Origin: Streptosporangium lutulentum
GTDB lineage: Bacteria; Actinomycetota; Actinomycetes; Streptosporangiales; Streptosporangiaceae
Reading direction: 5' to 3'
Length of the DNA stretch: 64,000 bases
Assembly (NCBI RefSeq): GCF_030811455.1
Contig: NZ_JAUSQU010000001.1
Coordinates: forward strand, 496,001-560,000
In this document: in pieces, positions 12,195-19,766 of the stretch
How the letters are laid out: every line of letters starts with the position of its first letter
How positions within the stretch are numbered: position 1 is the stretch's first letter
Notes under the pieces: model-generated
Databases searched by the model: none
What the model saw: the letters and a program-made list of their open reading frames with translations, nothing else
Told to the model about the DNA's origin: nothing
Translations under genes and position numbers: made by a program

Positions 12195-12956
12195 TCAGGC
12201 CGTCGCGAAGCTCTTCTCCCGCTGTACGGCCTGCTCGTACCGTTCGAGGAGCACGGTCGCGAGTTCCGGGGCGGCGCCGAGCACGTCGGCGACGACCTCG
12301 GCGCCCGCGGCCAGGGTCGTGGCGCGGATCCTGTCGGCGAAGTAGCCGGGGGCCAGCAGGTAGGGGGCCACGACCACCCGCGGAGCCCCGGCCTCGACGA
12401 GCCGCCGGACCTCCTGCTCGGGGGTGGGCTCGGCCGCCGAGGCGTAGGCGGTGGTCACCGACCACCAGCCGCGCCGTCCGGCCCACTCCCGGGCGACCTG
12501 GGCGACCGTCGCGTTGGCCCGCCGGTCGCTGGAGCCGGCCGAGACCAGCACCACGGCGGTGCCGGGATCACCGGCCTCCACCCCCGCCTCGGCCAGGCGC
12601 CGCTCCAGGGCGGTGACCAGCAGCGGGTGCGGGCCCAGGGTGGCGCCCCGGTGCACGCGCAGCAGAGGCCTGCGGGCCGTCACCTCGGCGAGCGCGCCGG
12701 GGATGTCCACGCGGCTGTGGTAGGCCTCGGTGAGCAGCAGCGGCAGCACCGCGGCCTCGGCCAGCCCGGACAGCGCCATGGGGAGCGTCGGGGGAGCGTG
12801 GTCGAGGTAGGCGGTGCGCACGGGGAGCTCCGGACGCGCCCGCCGCACGAGGTCGAGCAGCCTCTCCACCGTCGCGGCGGCGCGCGGGTCACGGGACCCG
12901 TGCGCCACCGCGACCAACGGGACCGTGGACGCGGTGCCGGGGGCACGCCACGTCAT
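12195..12956 (-). CDS. Sirohydrochlorin chelatase, CbiX/SirB type
   Basis: A 253-residue class II chelatase related to CbiX/SirB, which insert Fe2+ or Co2+ into sirohydrochlorin. The N-terminal motif LVAVAHGSRDPRAAATV carries the metal-binding His, and the duplicated half has VVLVSAGSSDRRANATV and APYLLAPGYFADRI. The ATG at 12956 overlaps the cysH stop by four bases (ATGA), so translation is coupled. Placing the siroheme-making step in the operon with the siroheme-dependent sulfite reductase makes iron insertion the likely reaction. The open frame extends upstream to 13181, but that part is only the shadow of cysH. The Ser in SAGSSD replaces the second-half His seen in some long CbiX proteins. 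Confidence 0.88.
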   Translation of the reverse strand: MTWRAPGTASTVPLVAVAHGSRDPRAAATVERLLDLVRRARPELPVRTAYLDHAPPTLPMALSGLAEAAVLPLLLTEAYHSRVDIPGALAEVTARRPLLRVHRGATLGPHPLLVTALERRLAEAGVEAGDPGTAVVLVSAGSSDRRANATVAQVAREWAGRRGWWSVTTAYASAAEPTPEQEVRRLVEAGAPRVVVAPYLLAPGYFADRIRATTLAAGAEVVADVLGAAPELATVLLERYEQAVQREKSFATA

Positions 12957-13684
12957 AGATGAAGACCGCATTCCGTCTTGCCCAGTCCGGCCCAGCGACC
13001 GCTGCGCGGGTCCTCTCCCGGAGCGACCTGGCGGGTGCAGGGGGCGCAGCCGATCGAGGGGTAGTTGTCGTAGTGCAGCGGGTTGATGAGCACGCCGTTG
13101 TCGGCCATGTAGTTGTCGACGTCTTCCTGCGTCCACGTGGCGATCGGGTTGATCTTGACCATCTGGCGCTTGGCGTCCCACTCCACGACCTTGACGCCGG
13201 CGCGGGTGCTGGCCTCGTCGCGGCGGATGCCGGAGACCCAGGCGAGGTACGGCTCCAGCGCCCGGTTGAGCGGCTCGACCTTGCGCAGGTAGCAGCAGAG
13301 GTCGGGGTTGCGCCCGAACAGGCGGGGGCCGAGGTCGCGCTCCTGCTCGGCGACCGTCCGGGACGGTTTCACGTCGATCACGTTCACGTCGTAGACCTGC
13401 TGGACGGCGTCACGGGTGCCGATCGTCTCGGCGAAGTGGTATCCGGTGTCGATGAACAGCACGTCCACGCCCGGCTTGACCCGGCTGACCAGGTCGATCA
13501 GCAGGGCGTCGCTCATGGAGGCGGTGAGGCAGAGCCGGTCGCCGAAGGTGGCCGCCGCCCAGCGGATGATCTCGCGGGCGGAGGCGTCCTCCAGGAACCG
13601 CCCGGCCGACTCGACGATGTCCTGCAGGTCGAACGCGCCGCGCTGTTGCCGTAATCCGACTTCGACGTCCACCAGGCTGGTCAT
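12953..13684 (-). CDS. cysH: Adenylylsulfate (APS) reductase
   Basis: A 243-residue assimilatory APS reductase that reduces adenylylsulfate to sulfite. The iron-sulfur cysteines are all present: Cys130-Cys131 in DLCCYLRK and Cys213/Cys216 in GCAPCTR, which marks it as the [4Fe-4S] APS-using type rather than the PAPS-only enzyme. The catalytic C-terminal Cys239 lies in KTECGLH. The substrate loop SMSDALLIDL and the DTGYHF motif are also visible. Its ATG overlaps the stop of the 47-aa zinc-ribbon gene by four bases and its stop overlaps the chelatase start by four bases. No cysDN or ATP sulfurylase gene is in the window. Confidence 0.95.
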   Translation of the reverse strand: MTSLVDVEVGLRQQRGAFDLQDIVESAGRFLEDASAREIIRWAAATFGDRLCLTASMSDALLIDLVSRVKPGVDVLFIDTGYHFAETIGTRDAVQQVYDVNVIDVKPSRTVAEQERDLGPRLFGRNPDLCCYLRKVEPLNRALEPYLAWVSGIRRDEASTRAGVKVVEWDAKRQMVKINPIATWTQEDVDNYMADNGVLINPLHYDNYPSIGCAPCTRQVAPGEDPRSGRWAGLGKTECGLHL

Positions 13685-13824
13685 GATCGCACTCCGATTC
13701 CCAGAAACTTCAGCTTGAAAGCGCGGACGCAGGAGCGGCAGTACCAGCCGCCGTCACCTTCATAGGGTTCGAGGTCCTCGTCACCGCAGTAGGGGCAGTG
13801 GAAGGGAACCGCTCGCTCGGTCAT
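13681..13824 (-). CDS. 47-residue zinc-ribbon protein inside the sulfur operon
   Basis: This short gene fills the space between sir and cysH exactly. Its ATG (13824) overlaps the sir stop by four bases and its TGA overlaps the cysH ATG by four bases, so it is translated as part of the operon. The protein has two cysteine pairs, CPYC at residues 10-13 and CRSC at 29-32, separated by an acidic stretch and an aromatic WY: a small rubredoxin-like or zinc-ribbon knuckle. The tail is basic (FKLKFLGIGVR). Streptomyces sulfur clusters have a small gene at this position. Function is unknown; a metal- or Fe-S-transfer or redox-partner role is only an inference. Confidence 0.85.
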   Translation of the reverse strand: MTERAVPFHCPYCGDEDLEPYEGDGGWYCRSCVRAFKLKFLGIGVRS

Positions 13825-15503
13825 TTGAGGTCCGCCTCGTCGGCGCGCTGAACCCAGTCGGCGAAGGTCTCGCCCTCGTCCTTCTGCTTCTCGAAGTTCG
13901 TGACGACGCGCTCCACGTAGTCGGGCAGCTCCTCGGCGGTGGCCTTCAGCCCGCGCACCTTGCGGCCGAAGCCCGGGTTGACGCCCAGCGAGCCGCCCAG
14001 GTGGACCTGGAAGCCCTCGACCTGCTCACCCTTGTCGTTGACGACGAGCTGGCCCTTGAGGCCGATGTCGGCGACCTGGATCCGGGCGCAGGAGTTGGGG
14101 CAGCCGTTGACGTTGATGGTCAGCGGGTCCTTGAAGTCCGGGAGGCGCTCCTCCAGCTCGTCGATCAGGTTGGCCGCGAGGGCCTTGGTCTCGACGATCG
14201 CCAGCTTGCAGAACTCGATGCCGGTACAGGCCATCGTCTGGCGGCGGAAGGTGGAGGGCTTGACCCGCAGGTCGTTGGCCTCCAGCTCGGCGACGATGCT
14301 GTCGACCTGGCCGGGAGCCACGTCGAGGATGACCATCTTCTGCTCGACCGTGGTGTGCACCCGGTCCGAGCCGTGCCGCTCGGCGATGTCGGCGATCAGG
14401 TTCAGCTTGTCGCCGTCGAGGCGGCCGACCTTGGGGGCGAAGCCGACGTAGAAGTTGCCGTCCTTCTGCTCGAAGACGCCCACGTGGTCCCTGCGCCCGC
14501 CGCGCGGCTGCTCGGGCGCGGGGCCGTCGGGCAGGGCGTGGCCGAGGTACTCCGTCTCGAGGATCTCCCTGAACTTCTCCGGGCCCCAGTCGTTGATGAG
14601 GAACTTGATCCGGGCCCGGTGCCGCAGGCGGCGGTAGCCGTAGTCACGGAAGATGCCGATCACGCCGCCGTAGGCGGGGGCGACCTGCTCGGGGGTCAGG
14701 AAGACGCCCAGTCGCTTGGCCAGCATGGGATTGGTGGACAGACCGCCGCCCACCCACAGGTCGTAGCCCTTCTCGCCCTGCTCGTTGACGACGCCCACGA
14801 ACGCCACGTCGTTGATCTCGTGCACGGTGCAGTGCGCCGGGCAGCCGCTCAGCGCGGACTTGAACTTGCGCGGCAGGTTGGAGAACGCGGGGTTGCCGAT
14901 GTAGGTGTCGTAGATCTCGCGGATCAGCTCGGTCGGGTCGATGAGCTCCTCGGTGTCGATCCCGGCCAGCGGGCAGCCCAGGATGACGCGCGGGGTGTCG
15001 CCGCAGGCCTCGGTGGTCGACAGGCCCACCGACTCCAGCCGCTCCCAGATGTCCGGGACGGCCTCGATCTCGATCCAGTGGAGCTGGATGTTCTGCCGGT
15101 CGGTGACGTCCGCGGTGCCCCGGCCGTAGAGGTTGGAGATGTCGGCGATGACGCGCAGCTGCGCCAGGTTGAGCCGGCCGCCGTCGATCCTGACCCGGAG
15201 CATGAAGTAGCGGTCGTCGAGCTCCTCCGGCTCCAGGATCGCGGTCTTGCCGCCGTCGATCCCGGGCTTGCGCTGGGTGTAGAGCCCGTACCAGCGCATC
15301 CGGCCCCGCAGGTCGGCCGGGTCGATGGAGTCGAAGCCGCGCTTGGAGTAGATGTCGATGATCCGCTGACGGACGTTGAGCCCGTCGTCGTTCTTCTTGT
15401 TCTCTTCGTTCTTGTTCAGAGGCTCGCTGTAGCCGAGAGCCCACTGACCTTCGCCGCGCGGGCGCTTGTGATGGCGGTTGGCAGGCCGGGCCGGGGTCGT
15501 CAT
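13821..15503 (-). CDS. sir: Ferredoxin-dependent sulfite reductase (nitrite/sulfite reductase family)
   Basis: A 560-residue siroheme and [4Fe-4S] enzyme reducing sulfite to sulfide with ferredoxin. The cluster and siroheme ligands are Cys426 and Cys432 (ACTGIEFC) and Cys468 and Cys472 (NGCPNSC). The Tyr72 (RWYGLYTQ) and Cys167 (EACGDTPR) positions that form the Tyr-Cys cross-link in mycobacterial NirA are both conserved, supporting sulfite rather than nitrite as substrate. The ATG at 15503 follows AAAAGGACG; an in-frame GTG at 15545 would add 14 unlikely residues. It is the first structural gene of a four-gene coupled operon and lies behind a leader peptide and hairpins. Confidence 0.95.
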   Translation of the reverse strand: MTTPARPANRHHKRPRGEGQWALGYSEPLNKNEENKKNDDGLNVRQRIIDIYSKRGFDSIDPADLRGRMRWYGLYTQRKPGIDGGKTAILEPEELDDRYFMLRVRIDGGRLNLAQLRVIADISNLYGRGTADVTDRQNIQLHWIEIEAVPDIWERLESVGLSTTEACGDTPRVILGCPLAGIDTEELIDPTELIREIYDTYIGNPAFSNLPRKFKSALSGCPAHCTVHEINDVAFVGVVNEQGEKGYDLWVGGGLSTNPMLAKRLGVFLTPEQVAPAYGGVIGIFRDYGYRRLRHRARIKFLINDWGPEKFREILETEYLGHALPDGPAPEQPRGGRRDHVGVFEQKDGNFYVGFAPKVGRLDGDKLNLIADIAERHGSDRVHTTVEQKMVILDVAPGQVDSIVAELEANDLRVKPSTFRRQTMACTGIEFCKLAIVETKALAANLIDELEERLPDFKDPLTINVNGCPNSCARIQVADIGLKGQLVVNDKGEQVEGFQVHLGGSLGVNPGFGRKVRGLKATAEELPDYVERVVTNFEKQKDEGETFADWVQRADEADLK

Positions 15504-15549
15504 GTGCGCGTCCTTTTGTTGCTCGATGGAATGATTTCCGGACACGCAC

Positions 15550-15600
15550 AGGCGGCACCTCCCGCCTCATCGTTGAGTGCGGGGGTCGATTACTCAAACG
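15550..15600 (-). promoter_or_regulatory. Two RNA hairpins between the leader peptide and sir
   Basis: On the minus strand the leader between the peptide stop and sir holds two dyads. The first pairs TTGAGT with ACTCAA (15573-15578 and 15592-15597) around a 13-base loop. The second pairs AGGCGG with CCGCCT (15550-15555 and 15562-15567) around a six-base loop. Neither is followed by a clear U tract, so translational masking or Rho-type control is as likely as intrinsic termination. Confidence 0.5.
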
Positions 15601-15650
15601 AGGACGCCTGTCACGCGGCCGAGCTGGATGAAATCAGCAGAGGGCGACGA

Positions 15651-15734
15651 TCAACGGACGTCACAACAGATGGCACTGCGGACACGCAGAAGGTCGACGT
15701 GGCGTCGCACGACGAGCAATGGGTCCACTGGCAT
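15651..15734 (-). CDS. 27-residue leader peptide of the sulfur operon
   Basis: An ATG at 15734 opens a 27-codon frame ending with TGA at 15651-15653. It contains RRHVDLLRVRSAICC, the hallmark of the short 'putative leader peptides' found upstream of sulfur genes in Streptomyces and related actinobacteria. It ends in two consecutive cysteine codons (residues 23-24), both TGT, a rare choice in this GC-rich DNA. The start is probably leaderless, since a -10 hexamer ends seven bases before the ATG. The position, 148 bp before sir, and the tandem Cys codons suggest that cysteine-limited ribosome stalling alters the downstream hairpins. Confidence 0.85.
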   Translation of the reverse strand: MPVDPLLVVRRHVDLLRVRSAICCDVR

Positions 15735-15741
15735 GTCTCAG

Positions 15742-15770
15742 ACGATACCCTGGTGGCCCGAGATGTCCAA
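15742..15770 (-). promoter_or_regulatory. Promoter of the leader peptide and sulfur operon
   Basis: On the minus strand TTGGAC (complement of 15765-15770) and TATCGT (complement of 15742-15747) are separated by exactly 17 bp. The -10 ends seven bases before the leader ATG, predicting a leaderless transcript. This is one of the best sigma-70-like promoters in the window. Confidence 0.75.
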
Positions 15771-15776
15771 TGTCCG

Positions 15777-15791
15777 GTCCAAATTCTGGAC
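15777..15791. promoter_or_regulatory. Short dyad just upstream of the sulfur promoter
   Basis: A perfect inverted repeat GTCCA-N5-TGGAC lies directly upstream of the -35 element, and GTCC-type half sites are repeated nearby (ATGTCCAATGTCC). A 15-bp T-N11-A-like dyad at this place would suit a LysR-type sulfur regulator, but no regulator gene is adjacent. Confidence 0.35.
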
Positions 15792-15834
15792 GGAAACGTG
15801 GTCTTGGCCTTGTCGAGGCCGGTCCGCCGCAGCC

Positions 15835-15990
15835 CTACCCTTGCCGGGGCCAGCCCAGCGGTGACTCCCTGGGCCCCTCGGCCTGCTCGGCGGCCTGGTG
15901 CTGGCAGTCGCACCACGAGCCTCCCCGGCACTCCTCGTGCCTTCGCTCCTTGCACTCATTGCAGATCACCCTTCCATTGTGCGACTCCAC
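15835..15990 (-). CDS. 51-residue Cys/His-rich small protein
   Basis: A GTG at 15990, preceded by CTGGAGGGAAC at good spacing, starts a 51-residue frame. It carries C-x2-C at residues 10-13, then His18, Cys21, C-x-C at 27-29 and His31 (VICNECKERRHEECRGG then SWCDCQH), a compact zinc-binding pattern; the C-terminal half is polar and probably disordered. Similar small proteins with a GSWCDCQH core occur in Streptomyces genomes near sulfur genes, from memory rather than a search. It ends about 65 bp before the sulfur-operon promoter and is on the same strand, so it may belong to the same region functionally, but it has its own translation signal. Confidence 0.75.
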   Translation of the reverse strand: MESHNGRVICNECKERRHEECRGGSWCDCQHQAAEQAEGPRESPLGWPRQG

Positions 15991-16052
15991 GCGGCCGTTC
16001 CCTCCAGAACATCCCTCGGTTACCCTTGCCGGAGCCGGAACGAGGAGGCGCC

Positions 16053-18389: not shown

Positions 18390-18404
18390 TCCGCTATCGT
18401 CTAG

Positions 18405-18475
18405 ACCGTGACTGGCGCGTTGGGTGGATGGACCACCGGGGAGCGAATGGCGGAGGCCGGGCGCCTGGGTCTTCG
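18405..18475 (+). promoter_or_regulatory. ZTP (pfl) riboswitch upstream of glyA
   Basis: The leader contains CCGTGACTGGCG at 18406-18417, then GGGTGGATGGACCACCGGGG and AGCG, and after a linker the distal CCGGGCGCCTGGGT (18457-18470). These are the conserved elements of the pfl motif, which senses ZTP/ZMP and controls one-carbon and purine genes. It ends about 40 bases before the glyA ATG. The short dyad TGGG-TCTTCG-CCCA at 18466-18479 directly after it may be part of the expression platform. A TATCGT at 18395-18400 could be the -10 of this transcript. Confidence 0.88.
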
Positions 18476-18509
18476 CCCATTGTCAAGATGACAGGGGAGT
18501 GAACGCGGC

Positions 18510-19766
18510 ATGAGTTCTCTTAACAGCGTCGATCCGCAGATTGCCGAGCTCGTCAAGGCGGAGGAGCGGCGTCAGGCCGACACCGTCAAGCTGATCGCCT
18601 CGGAGAACTACGCCTCCAAGGCGGTTCTCGAGGCCACCGGCACCGTCCTCACGAACAAGTATTCCGAGGGCTATCCGGGCAAGCGGTACTACGAGGGCCA
18701 GCAGGTCATCGACCAGATCGAACTGCTCGCCATCGACAGGGCCAAGTCCCTGTTCGGGGTGAACCACGCGAACGTCCAGCCCTACTCGGGCTCGCCCGCG
18801 AACCTCGCCATCTACCTGGCCTTCCTGAAGCCGGGCGAGACCGTCATGGGCATGGGCCTGCCGTTCGGCGGCCACCTGACCCACGGCTGGTCGGTCTCGG
18901 CCACCGGCAAGTGGTTCAACCCGGTCCGCTACGGCGTGCGCCAGGACACCGGCCGCGTCGACATGGACGAGGTCCGCGAGATCGCCCTGCGCGAGCGCCC
19001 CAAGCTGATCTTCTGCGGCGGCACCGCGATCCCGCGCACGATCGACTTCCCGGCCTTCGCCGAGATCGCCCGTGAGGTCGGAGCCGTGCTCGCCGCCGAC
19101 ATCGCGCACATCGCCGGCCTGGTGGCCGGTGGCGCCCACCCGTCGCCGGTCGGCCACGCGGACGTGATCTCCACCACCACCCACAAGACCCTGCGCGGTC
19201 CCCGGGGCGCCATGCTCATGGCCACCTCCGACGAGCACGCCACCGCGCTGAACAAGGCCGTCTTCCCCGGCCTGCAGGGCGGCCCGCACAACCACACCAC
19301 CGCGGCCATCGCGGTGGCGCTGAAGGAAGCGGCGACCGACGAGTTCAAGGACTACGCCCGCCAGGTCGTCATGAACGCCCAGGCGCTGGCCGAGGAGCTC
19401 AAGGGCCGCGGCTTCGACCTGGTCTCCGGTGGCACCGACAACCACCTCATCCTGCTCGACCTGACCCCCAAGGGCATCGGCGGCAAGCCCGCCGCCCAGG
19501 CCCTGGACAAGGCCGGTCTGGAGACCAACTACAACAGCGTGCCGTTCGACACGCGCAAGCCGTTCGACCCCTCGGGCATCCGCGTCGGCACCGCCGGTGT
19601 GACCAGCCGGGGCATGGGCGTCGCCGAGATGCGCCAGATCGGCGCCTGGATCGACCAGGTCGTCAGCGCCCTGGCCAAGGGCGAGGACGAGGCCGATCAC
19701 GTCATCACCCGCGTTCGCGGCGAGGTCACGGAGCTGACCTCGCACTTCCCGGCCCCCGGCCTGTGA
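18510..19766 (+). CDS. glyA: Serine hydroxymethyltransferase
   Basis: A 418-residue PLP enzyme that interconverts serine and glycine while loading tetrahydrofolate with a one-carbon unit. The PLP lysine is Lys226 in STTTHKTLRGPRG; ADIAHIAGL (residues 196-204) holds the conserved Asp and His of the cofactor site, and SENYAS and the YSEGYPGKRYY loop are intact. Length is standard. GGGGAG at 18494-18499 sits ten bases before the ATG. The upstream ZTP riboswitch ties expression to folate/purine limitation, which fits its supply of glycine and one-carbon units to purine synthesis. Confidence 0.97.
   Translation: MSSLNSVDPQIAELVKAEERRQADTVKLIASENYASKAVLEATGTVLTNKYSEGYPGKRYYEGQQVIDQIELLAIDRAKSLFGVNHANVQPYSGSPANLAIYLAFLKPGETVMGMGLPFGGHLTHGWSVSATGKWFNPVRYGVRQDTGRVDMDEVREIALRERPKLIFCGGTAIPRTIDFPAFAEIAREVGAVLAADIAHIAGLVAGGAHPSPVGHADVISTTTHKTLRGPRGAMLMATSDEHATALNKAVFPGLQGGPHNHTTAAIAVALKEAATDEFKDYARQVVMNAQALAEELKGRGFDLVSGGTDNHLILLDLTPKGIGGKPAAQALDKAGLETNYNSVPFDTRKPFDPSGIRVGTAGVTSRGMGVAEMRQIGAWIDQVVSALAKGEDEADHVITRVRGEVTELTSHFPAPGL

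Follow-up and report, generated by a model that had tools for sequence, protein, structure and literature searches.

The leader region of the assimilatory sulfate-reduction operon in the window, i.e., the 64,000-nucleotide stretch of Streptosporangium lutulentum DNA analyzed here, is probably a ribosome-sensed translational attenuator, a reading to which we give a probability of ~0.6. Its leader ORF adds another example to the cysteine-responsive leader ORFs already described from mycobacteria. With this type of leader known already, the unexpected part is the fixed UGU spelling of one Cys codon, and the gain is a covariation-backed structural model for Cys leaders outside mycobacteria. The features of the locus are as follows:

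15770-15765, minus strand: −35 element TTGGAC, read directly
15747-15742, minus strand: −10 element TATCGT, 7 nt from the leader ATG (15734-15732)
15651..15734, minus strand: leader ORF MPVDPLLVVRRHVDLLRVRSAICCDVR, 27 codons, stop at 15653-15651
15680..15688, minus strand: arm 0, L-R-V-R leader codons UGCGUGUCC, a complement of the Shine-Dalgarno stretch of sir
15666..15668, minus strand: anchor (first) Cys codon UGU, the proposed sensor
15663..15665, minus strand: second Cys codon UGU, not conserved
15642..15662, minus strand: arm 1, spanning the final codons of the leader, its stop and a further 9 nt; partner of arm 2
15603..15621, minus strand: arm 2, partner of arm 1 or arm 3
15561..15585, minus strand: hairpin separating arms 2 and 3, conserved by alignment counts
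15539..15554, minus strand: arm 3, holding the anti-Shine-Dalgarno GTGCGTGTCC (15549-15540)
15504..15513, minus strand: arm 4, Shine-Dalgarno stretch GGACGCGCAC, adjoining the sir ATG
13821..15503, minus strand: sir, nitrite/sulfite reductase family protein (Pfam NIR_SIR, 211.7 bits; ATG at 15503)
13681..13824, minus strand: 47-aa CxxC/CxxC ORF, with an ATGA overlap with both sir and cysH
12953..13684, minus strand: cysH, phosphoadenylyl-sulfate reductase (NF002537, 266.9 bits, cut-off 154)
12195..12956, minus strand: CbiX-domain gene, sirohydrochlorin chelatase type (Pfam CbiX, 132.7 bits on 12198-12980)

Direct reading bears out the promoter and most of the frame described in the original prediction: TTGGAC and TATCGT are separated by 17 nt, the −10 ends seven bases from the ATG, and the 27 codons encode a peptide with the RRHVDLLR motif. 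The further claim that the frame ends in two TGT codons fails, since residues D-V-R come after the two Cys codons (15668-15663). A promoter scan of 15300-16000 returned a single site, in which this −10 is combined with TGGACA across a 16-nt spacer (9/12); 50 shuffles gave a mean of 0.0 sites. With a looser pattern (TTG-type −35, 16–18 nt, TAnnnT, ending 3–10 nt ahead of the ATG), 59 of the 99 distinct sir loci matched, each ending 6 or 7 nt from the ATG, and 40 gave no match. With 7 nt between the −10 and the leader ATG, this promoter spacing points to a probably leaderless transcript, which would start at or near that ATG.

The leader peptide passes NCBIfam NF042934 (cis_reg_atten), a 19-position peptide profile that holds neither codons nor RNA structure, with 30.9 bits against a cut-off of 27 (29.2 bits as a six-frame hit). 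NF042933 (Ms5788A, 17.8 bits) and NF042936 (Ms4527A, 20.6 bits) were both below the curated cut-off of 45, and no Rfam model matched 15400-15850 up to E 1. A relative of the leader lies upstream of sir in 110/110 loci examined (99 distinct after removal of 11 duplicates), and sulfur genes also neighbor other leaders of the class. Behind the leader, whose stop is 147 nt from sir, the operon runs sir, CxxC ORF (20.5 bits against NF047912, under the cut-off of 37), cysH and the CbiX gene, the ATG of which overlaps the cysH stop. Family, synteny and sulfur-gene context agree, and the predicted role as a cysteine-sensing leader over sulfate assimilation fits them; what does not hold from the earlier account is its emphasis on tandem Cys codons.

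Specifically, 44 of the 99 distinct sir leaders carry the second Cys and 55 a different residue there, so that conservation, while holding for the pairings described below, fails for the tandem. The invariant feature is instead the anchor codon, spelled UGU in 99/99 distinct sir leaders; in the sir genes, 94% of Cys codons are UGC. Among the matches listed for the class, the anchor position is UGU in 111/112 leaders, and Cys codons upstream of it are UGC 126 times and UGU 19 times, which raises the puzzle of a near-universal UGU at one Cys codon of peptides whose upstream Cys codons are mostly UGC. Over the sir and class sets together, UGU occupies the anchor in 210/211 among the matches listed, the two sets sharing at least one leader: class leader L202 is a sir leader, its peptide identical to that of L110. 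Eighty class leaders were picked down the score-ordered list among the matches listed, with some skipped, and are thus a non-random sample.

The published theory of regulatory codon choice (PMC1183508) acts via different isoacceptors for synonymous codons. ARAGORN, run on stretches over all 68 tRNA positions listed for the genome, found the Cys anticodon GCA only; ACA was absent among these 68 places, two tRNAs having unassigned four-base anticodons, and a pattern search open to both anticodons found three GCA tRNA-Cys genes. With tRNA-Cys(GCA) the only kind found in the genome, isoacceptor charging does not account for the fixed UGU, and we rejected it as a cause. Among the open-licence papers listed for this leader, for UGU and for cysteine dioxygenase in combination with leader peptides, we recognized none as describing a UGU rule. 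We tentatively suggest, at somewhat short of even odds, that actinobacterial Cys leaders may be single-codon sensors relying on a synonymous choice, in which a conserved nascent chain is followed by one positionally fixed UGU, and that UGC there, although read by the same tRNA-Cys, would blunt or abolish the response. If true, the class-wide rule would reflect how a wobble-read codon is decoded within conserved surroundings, rather than isoacceptor charging. A purely structural reason for UGU, i.e., an anchor kept unpaired with decoding irrelevant, appears unlikely. Placing C at the anchor base in silico did raise codon pairing from 0.486 to 0.649 across the 99 sir leaders, and synonymous T-to-C changes elsewhere (76 changes) had no mean effect, but over 111 class leaders among the matches listed the effect was nil (0.659 vs 0.661, p 0.42), and UGU is nonetheless fixed there. 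The unpaired-base requirement was dropped, as its effect is seen in sir leaders and not class-wide.

In the model that we favor, a leaderless transcript would begin at or close to the leader ATG. When Cys-tRNA is ample, the ribosome would pass the Cys codon(s) and depart at the stop, arms 1 and 2 would pair, and arm 3 would hide the sir Shine-Dalgarno (arm 4); arm 0, a second anti-Shine-Dalgarno copy within the L-R-V-R codons, may act as an alternative mask. With Cys-tRNA short, we infer that the ribosome would halt with UGU in the A site. If a ribosome footprint reaches ~17 nt upstream and ~13 nt downstream from the first base of the A-site codon, one halted at the anchor would cover the beginning of arm 1 together with most of arm 0; with arm 1 covered in this way, arms 2 and 3 would pair and the Shine-Dalgarno would be free. 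In relatives with a U-run past arm 2, such as Herbidospora and Microbispora, helix 1:2 may also end transcription. The ermC attenuator works through exclusive helix sets, a stalled ribosome covering arm 1 and freeing the Shine-Dalgarno in arm 4. The leader in the window may follow this logic, with 1:2 and 3:4 exclusive with 2:3 and the Shine-Dalgarno in arm 4; unlike ermC, where an antibiotic causes the stall, the cause here would be missing Cys-tRNA, and an extra anti-Shine-Dalgarno inside the leader competes for the Shine-Dalgarno.

The arms were evaluated in four alignments totaling 97 sequences (A1, 14; A2, 49; A3, 15; A4, 19), all of which allow the same arms to be drawn. The A4 sequences hardly vary. 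One leader (L057) was excluded from structural analysis owing to a misassigned sir start, and another (L082) from the alignments, leaving 97 of 98. RNAalifold gave no useful consensus for the 68-sequence group (energy −8.2); helices were then named from structures of member sequences and counted, a procedure that favors them in the slide control. Helix 2:3 was paired in 84.5% of A2 cells vs 82.0% when shuffled, with both sides changed in 8 of 15 pairs (0/500 shuffles), and its 19 pairs in A1 were 95.5% paired, with 8 cells changed on both sides (0/500). Helix 3:4 was 79.0% paired in A2 vs 75.7% shuffled (0/500), with 13 cells changed on both sides (0/500); slid by −2 columns it scored a higher covariation (0.153 vs 0.132), and no pair changed on both sides in A1, A3 or A4. 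The hairpin was paired in 91.1% of A2 cells vs 86.4% shuffled (0/500), with 24 cells changed on both sides (0/500). Helix 1:2 had 10 cells changed on both sides in A3 (0/500) and a 6-pair core paired in every cell of A2, where it was overall barely above shuffles (91.6% vs 91.1%, 33/500; pairs changed on both sides, 11/500). Counts of pairs changed on both sides were unexceptional in A1 (209/500) and A3 (44/500). Overall, covariation supports 2:3, 3:4 and the hairpin, and 1:2 more weakly. The two hairpins originally placed between the leader stop and sir can be matched to hairpin 15585-15561 and a Shine-Dalgarno hairpin, an incomplete picture in that both compete with longer pairings.

Within the window, the energy minimum of the whole leader has 2:3 formed, and it is arm 0 (with 15513-15505), not arm 3, that hides the Shine-Dalgarno. 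The fold energy itself was unexceptional, with z −1.77 (11/200 shuffles as good) and −0.91 (35/200). The stretch GGCGTCC of arm 2 also complements the Shine-Dalgarno and was dropped as the main pairing in view of the better pairing and the conservation of arm 3. An unsupervised duplex test of the stretch after the anchor found the window no better than shuffled targets (z 0.51, 136/200 as good), and 27/98 sequences passed 5%. Across the class, among the matches listed, the mean duplex z was −0.41 after the anchor vs 0.03 before it, and z fell below −2 in 13 vs 4 of 112 leaders; this signal being slight, the four-arm switch is not claimed outside sir.

For the window, deleting the RNA beneath the front of a stalled ribosome made the Shine-Dalgarno easier to open, the computed cost falling from 8.17 to 6.38 kcal/mol. 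Across 98 sequences, the mean change was −0.38 vs −0.01 in shuffles (Wilcoxon p 0.008, relatedness uncorrected), with 23 falling and 7 rising by >1 kcal and 68 shifting by less than 1 kcal either way. When the ribosome position was scanned on the full leader in every second sequence (49/98), the mean change was −0.47 with the anchor in the A site and −0.81 at the next codon, then +0.51 and +0.03 at the two codons after that; in the window, the opening cost was 7.48 without a ribosome, 5.80 at the anchor, 4.75 at the next codon, then 7.33 and 7.10. The scan does not reach its minimum at the anchor: a ribosome at positions −6 to −4 makes the Shine-Dalgarno still easier to open (−0.81 to −0.91).

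Transcription attenuation as the main mechanism, in which helix 1:2 would terminate (intrinsically or aided by Rho) unless a stalled ribosome covered arm 1 and Shine-Dalgarno pairing would be secondary, strikes us as improbable. TTTT does occur within 8 nt past arm 2 in 27/49 A2 sequences (at least 4 T in 38/49), which suggests extra termination in relatives, and PMC1262725 suggested Rho in 2005 for terminator-less Cys leaders, for which it found no conserved terminator hairpin. Such TTTT runs are rare elsewhere, however (0/14 in A1, 0/15 in A3, 1/19 in A4); a terminator scan of 15300-16000 in the window found none, so that the U-run intrinsic terminator which precedes the first gene in trp-type attenuators is not seen there, and the conserved 2:3 and 3:4 would be superfluous. 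The earlier statement that no U-rich terminator is visible thus stands for the window but not for many A2 relatives. In this species, the conserved pairings support Shine-Dalgarno sequestration as the predicted mode over a classical terminator, in line with the original suspicion of a non-classical mechanism.

Less likely again is a simpler switch in which arm 0 alone hides the Shine-Dalgarno, any ribosome on it opens it and arms 1–3 are minor, even though arm 0 is an apt partner: codons −7 to −4 form a duplex with the Shine-Dalgarno stretch that averages −13.4 kcal/mol (other leader stretches, −6.2), are its strongest leader partner in 69/98, do better in their own than in swapped combinations (0/200 permutations as good, without control for relatedness), and take part in the window's energy minimum. 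The LEU element before leuA offers a precedent (PMC1262725), since there too leader codons pair with the main gene's Shine-Dalgarno, although these are leucine codons and the element has a pseudoknot. Yet the arm 0 pairing is as expected from the peptide and normal codon usage, 41% of synonymous codings being as good, and the conservation of 2:3 and 3:4 is left unexplained. A choice of the L-R-V-R codons for pairing was itself rejected, as the test fell below 5% in 0/98 with sir usage and 5/98 with leader usage. An arrest peptide, in which the nascent RRHVD(L/F)xRVxSAI and not the codon alone would halt the ribosome on a trigger of Cys-tRNA or another sulfur signal, is a distinctly unlikely reading. 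It would suit the residues R, H, V, D, R, V, A and C, each invariant in 99/99 sir leaders though most of their codons vary, the low pN/pS of the leader (0.118 vs 0.257 in sir, 29 of 1500 random pairs left out), and the sufficiency of a single Cys in 55/99; however, much of the stretch differs in other class leaders, and pairing may explain the conservation of parts of the coding RNA. We give almost no credence to a leader that merely couples translation to sir without sensing: its stop does lie upstream of sir on the same strand, but 147 nt away, and the fixed UGU and alternative helices speak against it.

In 2020, Canestrari et al. reportedly described polycysteine leaderless sORFs of mycobacteria, on which stalled ribosomes block structures hiding the downstream RBS. 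These sORFs and the leader in the window both precede sulfur genes, with Cys codons that reportedly act as an attenuator in the former and are predicted to do so in the latter. Compared with that description, the sir relatives appear to differ in that most manage with one Cys, and in their fixed UGU, covarying alternative helices and U-run variants. Actinobacterial Cys leaders with Cys runs were reported in 2005 from Mycobacterium, P. acnes and B. longum (PMC1262725) and resemble the leader in the window as short ORFs with Cys near the stop, before cys genes and with no obvious terminator. The uORFC-8-2 motif before cysS of Rhodobacterales likewise joins a Cys-codon uORF to a cysteine-related gene, but with tandem Cys, mostly UGC, and an intrinsic terminator (PMC8632094). 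For six Cys-codon sORFs, PMC9094748 gives a G/C skew that goes up once the Cys codons are removed, an observation that touches on the UGU rule.

The promoter sequence noted on the minus strand, TTGGAC-N17-TATCGT, was confirmed, with 7 nt separating the end of the -10 element (TATCGT, 17 nt from the -35 TTGGAC) from the ATG of a 27-codon ORF, the product of which (MPVDPLLVVRRHVDLLRVRSAICCDVR) matched NCBIfam NF042934 at 30.9 bits (cut-off 27). Downstream follow sir (Pfam NIR_SIR), a 47-aa CxxC ORF, cysH and a CbiX-domain gene, successive genes being joined by ATGA overlaps.

15503-15791, minus strand: leader region, i.e., promoter, 27-codon ORF and 147 nt up to sir

The 47-aa ORF (window 13681-13824), which carries two CxxC pairs and shares an ATGA overlap with both sir and cysH, weakly matched a putative zinc-binding family.

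To evaluate leader conservation, the sir protein was searched against 200 genomes of the family, 193 of which matched at E 1e-150; Streptosporangium species were the best named relatives among the matches listed, which may lack records very near the window. We then analyzed 110 sir loci (30 comprising the window genome's own and 29 from the family search, plus the best 80 named loci), requiring that a frame carrying the motif R-x-HVD-x2-RV-x2-A-(I/V/L)-C lie no more than 500 nt from sir; the motif fixes residues and leaves codons free. All 110 loci carried such a frame, and 99 were distinct over the interval between 40 nt upstream of the ATG and the sir start codon. Eight residues were invariant in 99/99 (R -13, H -11, V -10, D -9, R -6, V -5, A -2 and C 0, counted in codons from the first Cys codon, hereafter the anchor), and since no locus failed the motif, this invariance was not produced by motif selection. 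pN/pS was 0.118 for the leader vs 0.257 for 150 sir N-terminal codons (1471 random pairs). Codon spelling varied at every invariant position except the anchor, which was TGT in all 99 leaders; TGC accounted for 94% of the 818 Cys codons in these loci's sir genes. The tandem arrangement of Cys codons seen in the window was not conserved, as only 44 of the 99 loci had a second Cys (TGC in 26, TGT in 18), the residue after the anchor otherwise being Arg (22), Ile (16), Thr (6), Leu (5), Ser (3) or, once each, Tyr, Phe and Trp.

The same spelling recurred in the leaders read across the class. NF042934 scored above cut-off in 174 of 296 Actinomycetes genomes, with no match in 14 control genomes at E 0.001. 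Among 112 class leaders (80 fetched, 30 profile-search loci and 2 others from the window genome), all but one had TGT for Cys at the last model position (111; the exception, L205, has TGC). These leaders are high-scoring ones, their relatedness means that the counts are not independent, and at least one peptide is shared with the sir set (L202 = L110). NF042934 is a protein model and thus blind to codon spelling, but favours Cys at the anchor. Other Cys codons in these peptides were TGC 126 and TGT 19 before the anchor, and TGC 48 and TGT 32 after it; the NNT/(NNT+NNC) share was 0.99 at the anchor vs ≤0.36 at other positions from -15 to +5, and 0.16 when all positions preceding the anchor were pooled. 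The exceptional L205 precedes, by eye, a sir-like frame.

Several reasons for this rule can be considered. Regulatory codon bias has been explained by choice between isoacceptors (PMC1183508, in excerpt). In the 10.6-Mb window genome, however, three tRNA-Cys genes were found, all with anticodon GCA, and no ACA anticodon, so both Cys codons should be read by one kind of tRNA and we rejected isoacceptor choice as the cause. RNA pairing of the codon itself gave a divided picture: an in-silico C at the anchor raised codon pairing from 0.486 to 0.649 in sir leaders (n = 99) but not in class leaders (0.659 to 0.661, n = 111). Slow wobble reading of UGU in a fixed nascent-chain context would be the likelier reason.

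Downstream of the anchor, alternative helices (1:2, 2:3 and 3:4) were named by inspecting individual members of four alignments: A1, Actinomadura-like (14 sequences); A2, Streptosporangium, Microbispora, Herbidospora and relatives (49); A3, Nocardiopsis-like (15); and A4, Nonomuraea (19).

Arm 1, GACGTCCGTTGATCGTCGCCC in the window: begins directly after the codon following the anchor and includes the stop codon
Arm 2, CGGCCGCGTGACAGGCGTC in the window
Arm 3, CGCCTGTGCGTGTCCG in the window
Arm 4, GGACGCGCAC in the window: sir Shine-Dalgarno stretch

The paired share of cells in A1, A2, A3 and A4 was 84.5%, 89.4 and 91.6% (two versions), 87.6% and 98.6% for helix 1:2; 95.5%, 84.5%, 85.9% and 98.8% for 2:3; and 90.5%, 79.0%, 76.4% and 100% for 3:4, A4 being nearly invariant and hence of little information. 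Arm sequences varied between and within groups with complementarity kept, e.g., in A3 AGCGTCGG with CCGGCGCT and AACGTCGG with CCGACGTT. Helix 2:3 was never equaled in 500 shuffles in A2, where both sides changed in 8/15 pairs; in A1, 0/500 shuffles reached its cells paired or its cells changed on both sides, and 209/500 its pairs changed on both sides. For 3:4 in A2, 0/500 shuffles reached the cells paired and 37/500 the pairs changed on both sides; covariation scored higher after a slide of -2 columns than for the helix as named. Helix 1:2 in A3 was reached by 3/500 shuffles for cells paired, 0/500 for cells and 44/500 for pairs changed on both sides; in A2 it was weak (33/500) because its core hardly varies. 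The hairpin between arms 2 and 3 was supported in A2 (91.1% paired, 0/500 shuffles). Separately, Arg -13 was the rare CGA in 65/99 sir leaders (CGA = 1.4% of sir Arg codons), and together with the following codon often gives a further GACGCC, a possible additional partner for arm 2.

When the window leader was folded in full, its energy minimum combined helix 2:3 with a pairing of 15688-15680 (UGCGUGUCC, the L-R-V-R codons, hereafter arm 0) to the Shine-Dalgarno stretch 15513-15505. Across sequences, codons -7 to -4 reached a mean of -13.4 kcal/mol with this stretch vs -6.2 for other leader stretches, and paired best in 69/98; the peptide with normal codon usage accounts for such pairing, which 41% of synonymous codings equal. 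Own arm 0 pairs exceeded swapped ones in 200/200 permutations, with kinship not controlled. A ribosome with UGU in its A site would cover most of arm 0 and the first part of arm 1. When RNA was deleted as far as 13 nt from the first UGU base, the Shine-Dalgarno opening cost fell by 1.79 kcal/mol in the window and changed by a mean of -0.38 over 98 sequences vs -0.01 in shuffles (changes >1 kcal: 23 down, 7 up; 68 smaller). Scanning ribosome positions along the full leader (49 sequences) gave -0.47 at the anchor, -0.81 at the next codon and +0.51 and +0.03 at the following two, so the site closes once the ribosome has moved past the Cys codons, which the model requires. Positions -6 to -4 yielded -0.81 to -0.91, so the strongest easing does not fall at the anchor. 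Overall, the energy tests give the RNA switch modest backing. TTTT occurred ≤8 nt after arm 2 in 27/49 sequences of A2, 0/14 of A1, 0/15 of A3 and 1/19 of A4 (window: CTCGTTTG), and some genera may combine termination with Shine-Dalgarno control.

This kind of Cys leader is already known. Cysteine-responsive attenuation by mycobacterial Cys leaders was reportedly described by Canestrari in 2020. Excerpted sources present the mycobacterial leaders as cysteine-responsive attenuators (PMC4633059) and terminator-less Cys leaders as observed in 2005 (PMC1262725), and the Streptomyces lividans reannotation, in the part available, lists eight leader peptides, none for cysteine (PMC8079986). Unlike the leaders studied here, the Rhodobacterales cysS uORF, as excerpted, has mostly UGC (PMC8632094). 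Among the open-licence papers listed on the leader, UGU and cysteine dioxygenase leaders, we did not find the sir member, the covarying helices or the UGU rule.

Nine proteins, hand-chosen from ORFs following class leaders, were tested against Pfam, yielding cysteine dioxygenase, NMT1-like binding protein, rhodanese, PALP, DUF4395, TauD, PAPS reductase, luciferase-like monooxygenase and SDF symporter. As cysteine dioxygenase breaks down cysteine, it is difficult to see starvation as the inducer of every member. Leaders of the LWRRVHMDLxRYAGCxC type precede its gene at L172 (PF05995 match) and, by eye, at L200, L210 and L211; L165, L198, L204, L207, L213 and L214 resemble this form, and in some leaders of this type a downstream CAGGACGG pairs with the sequence that follows UGU. 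Within the window genome, two other leaders, L113 before an NMT1-like binding protein and L114 before a rhodanese, score above cut-off and have a TGT anchor, and a sub-cutoff leader (L116, 19.6 bits) has, by eye, an oxidoreductase-like frame behind it. Finally, a ZMP/ZTP riboswitch at window 18398-18477 (44.8 bits, cut-off 39) is followed after 32 nt by an ORF at 18510, which we take to resemble serine hydroxymethyltransferase.
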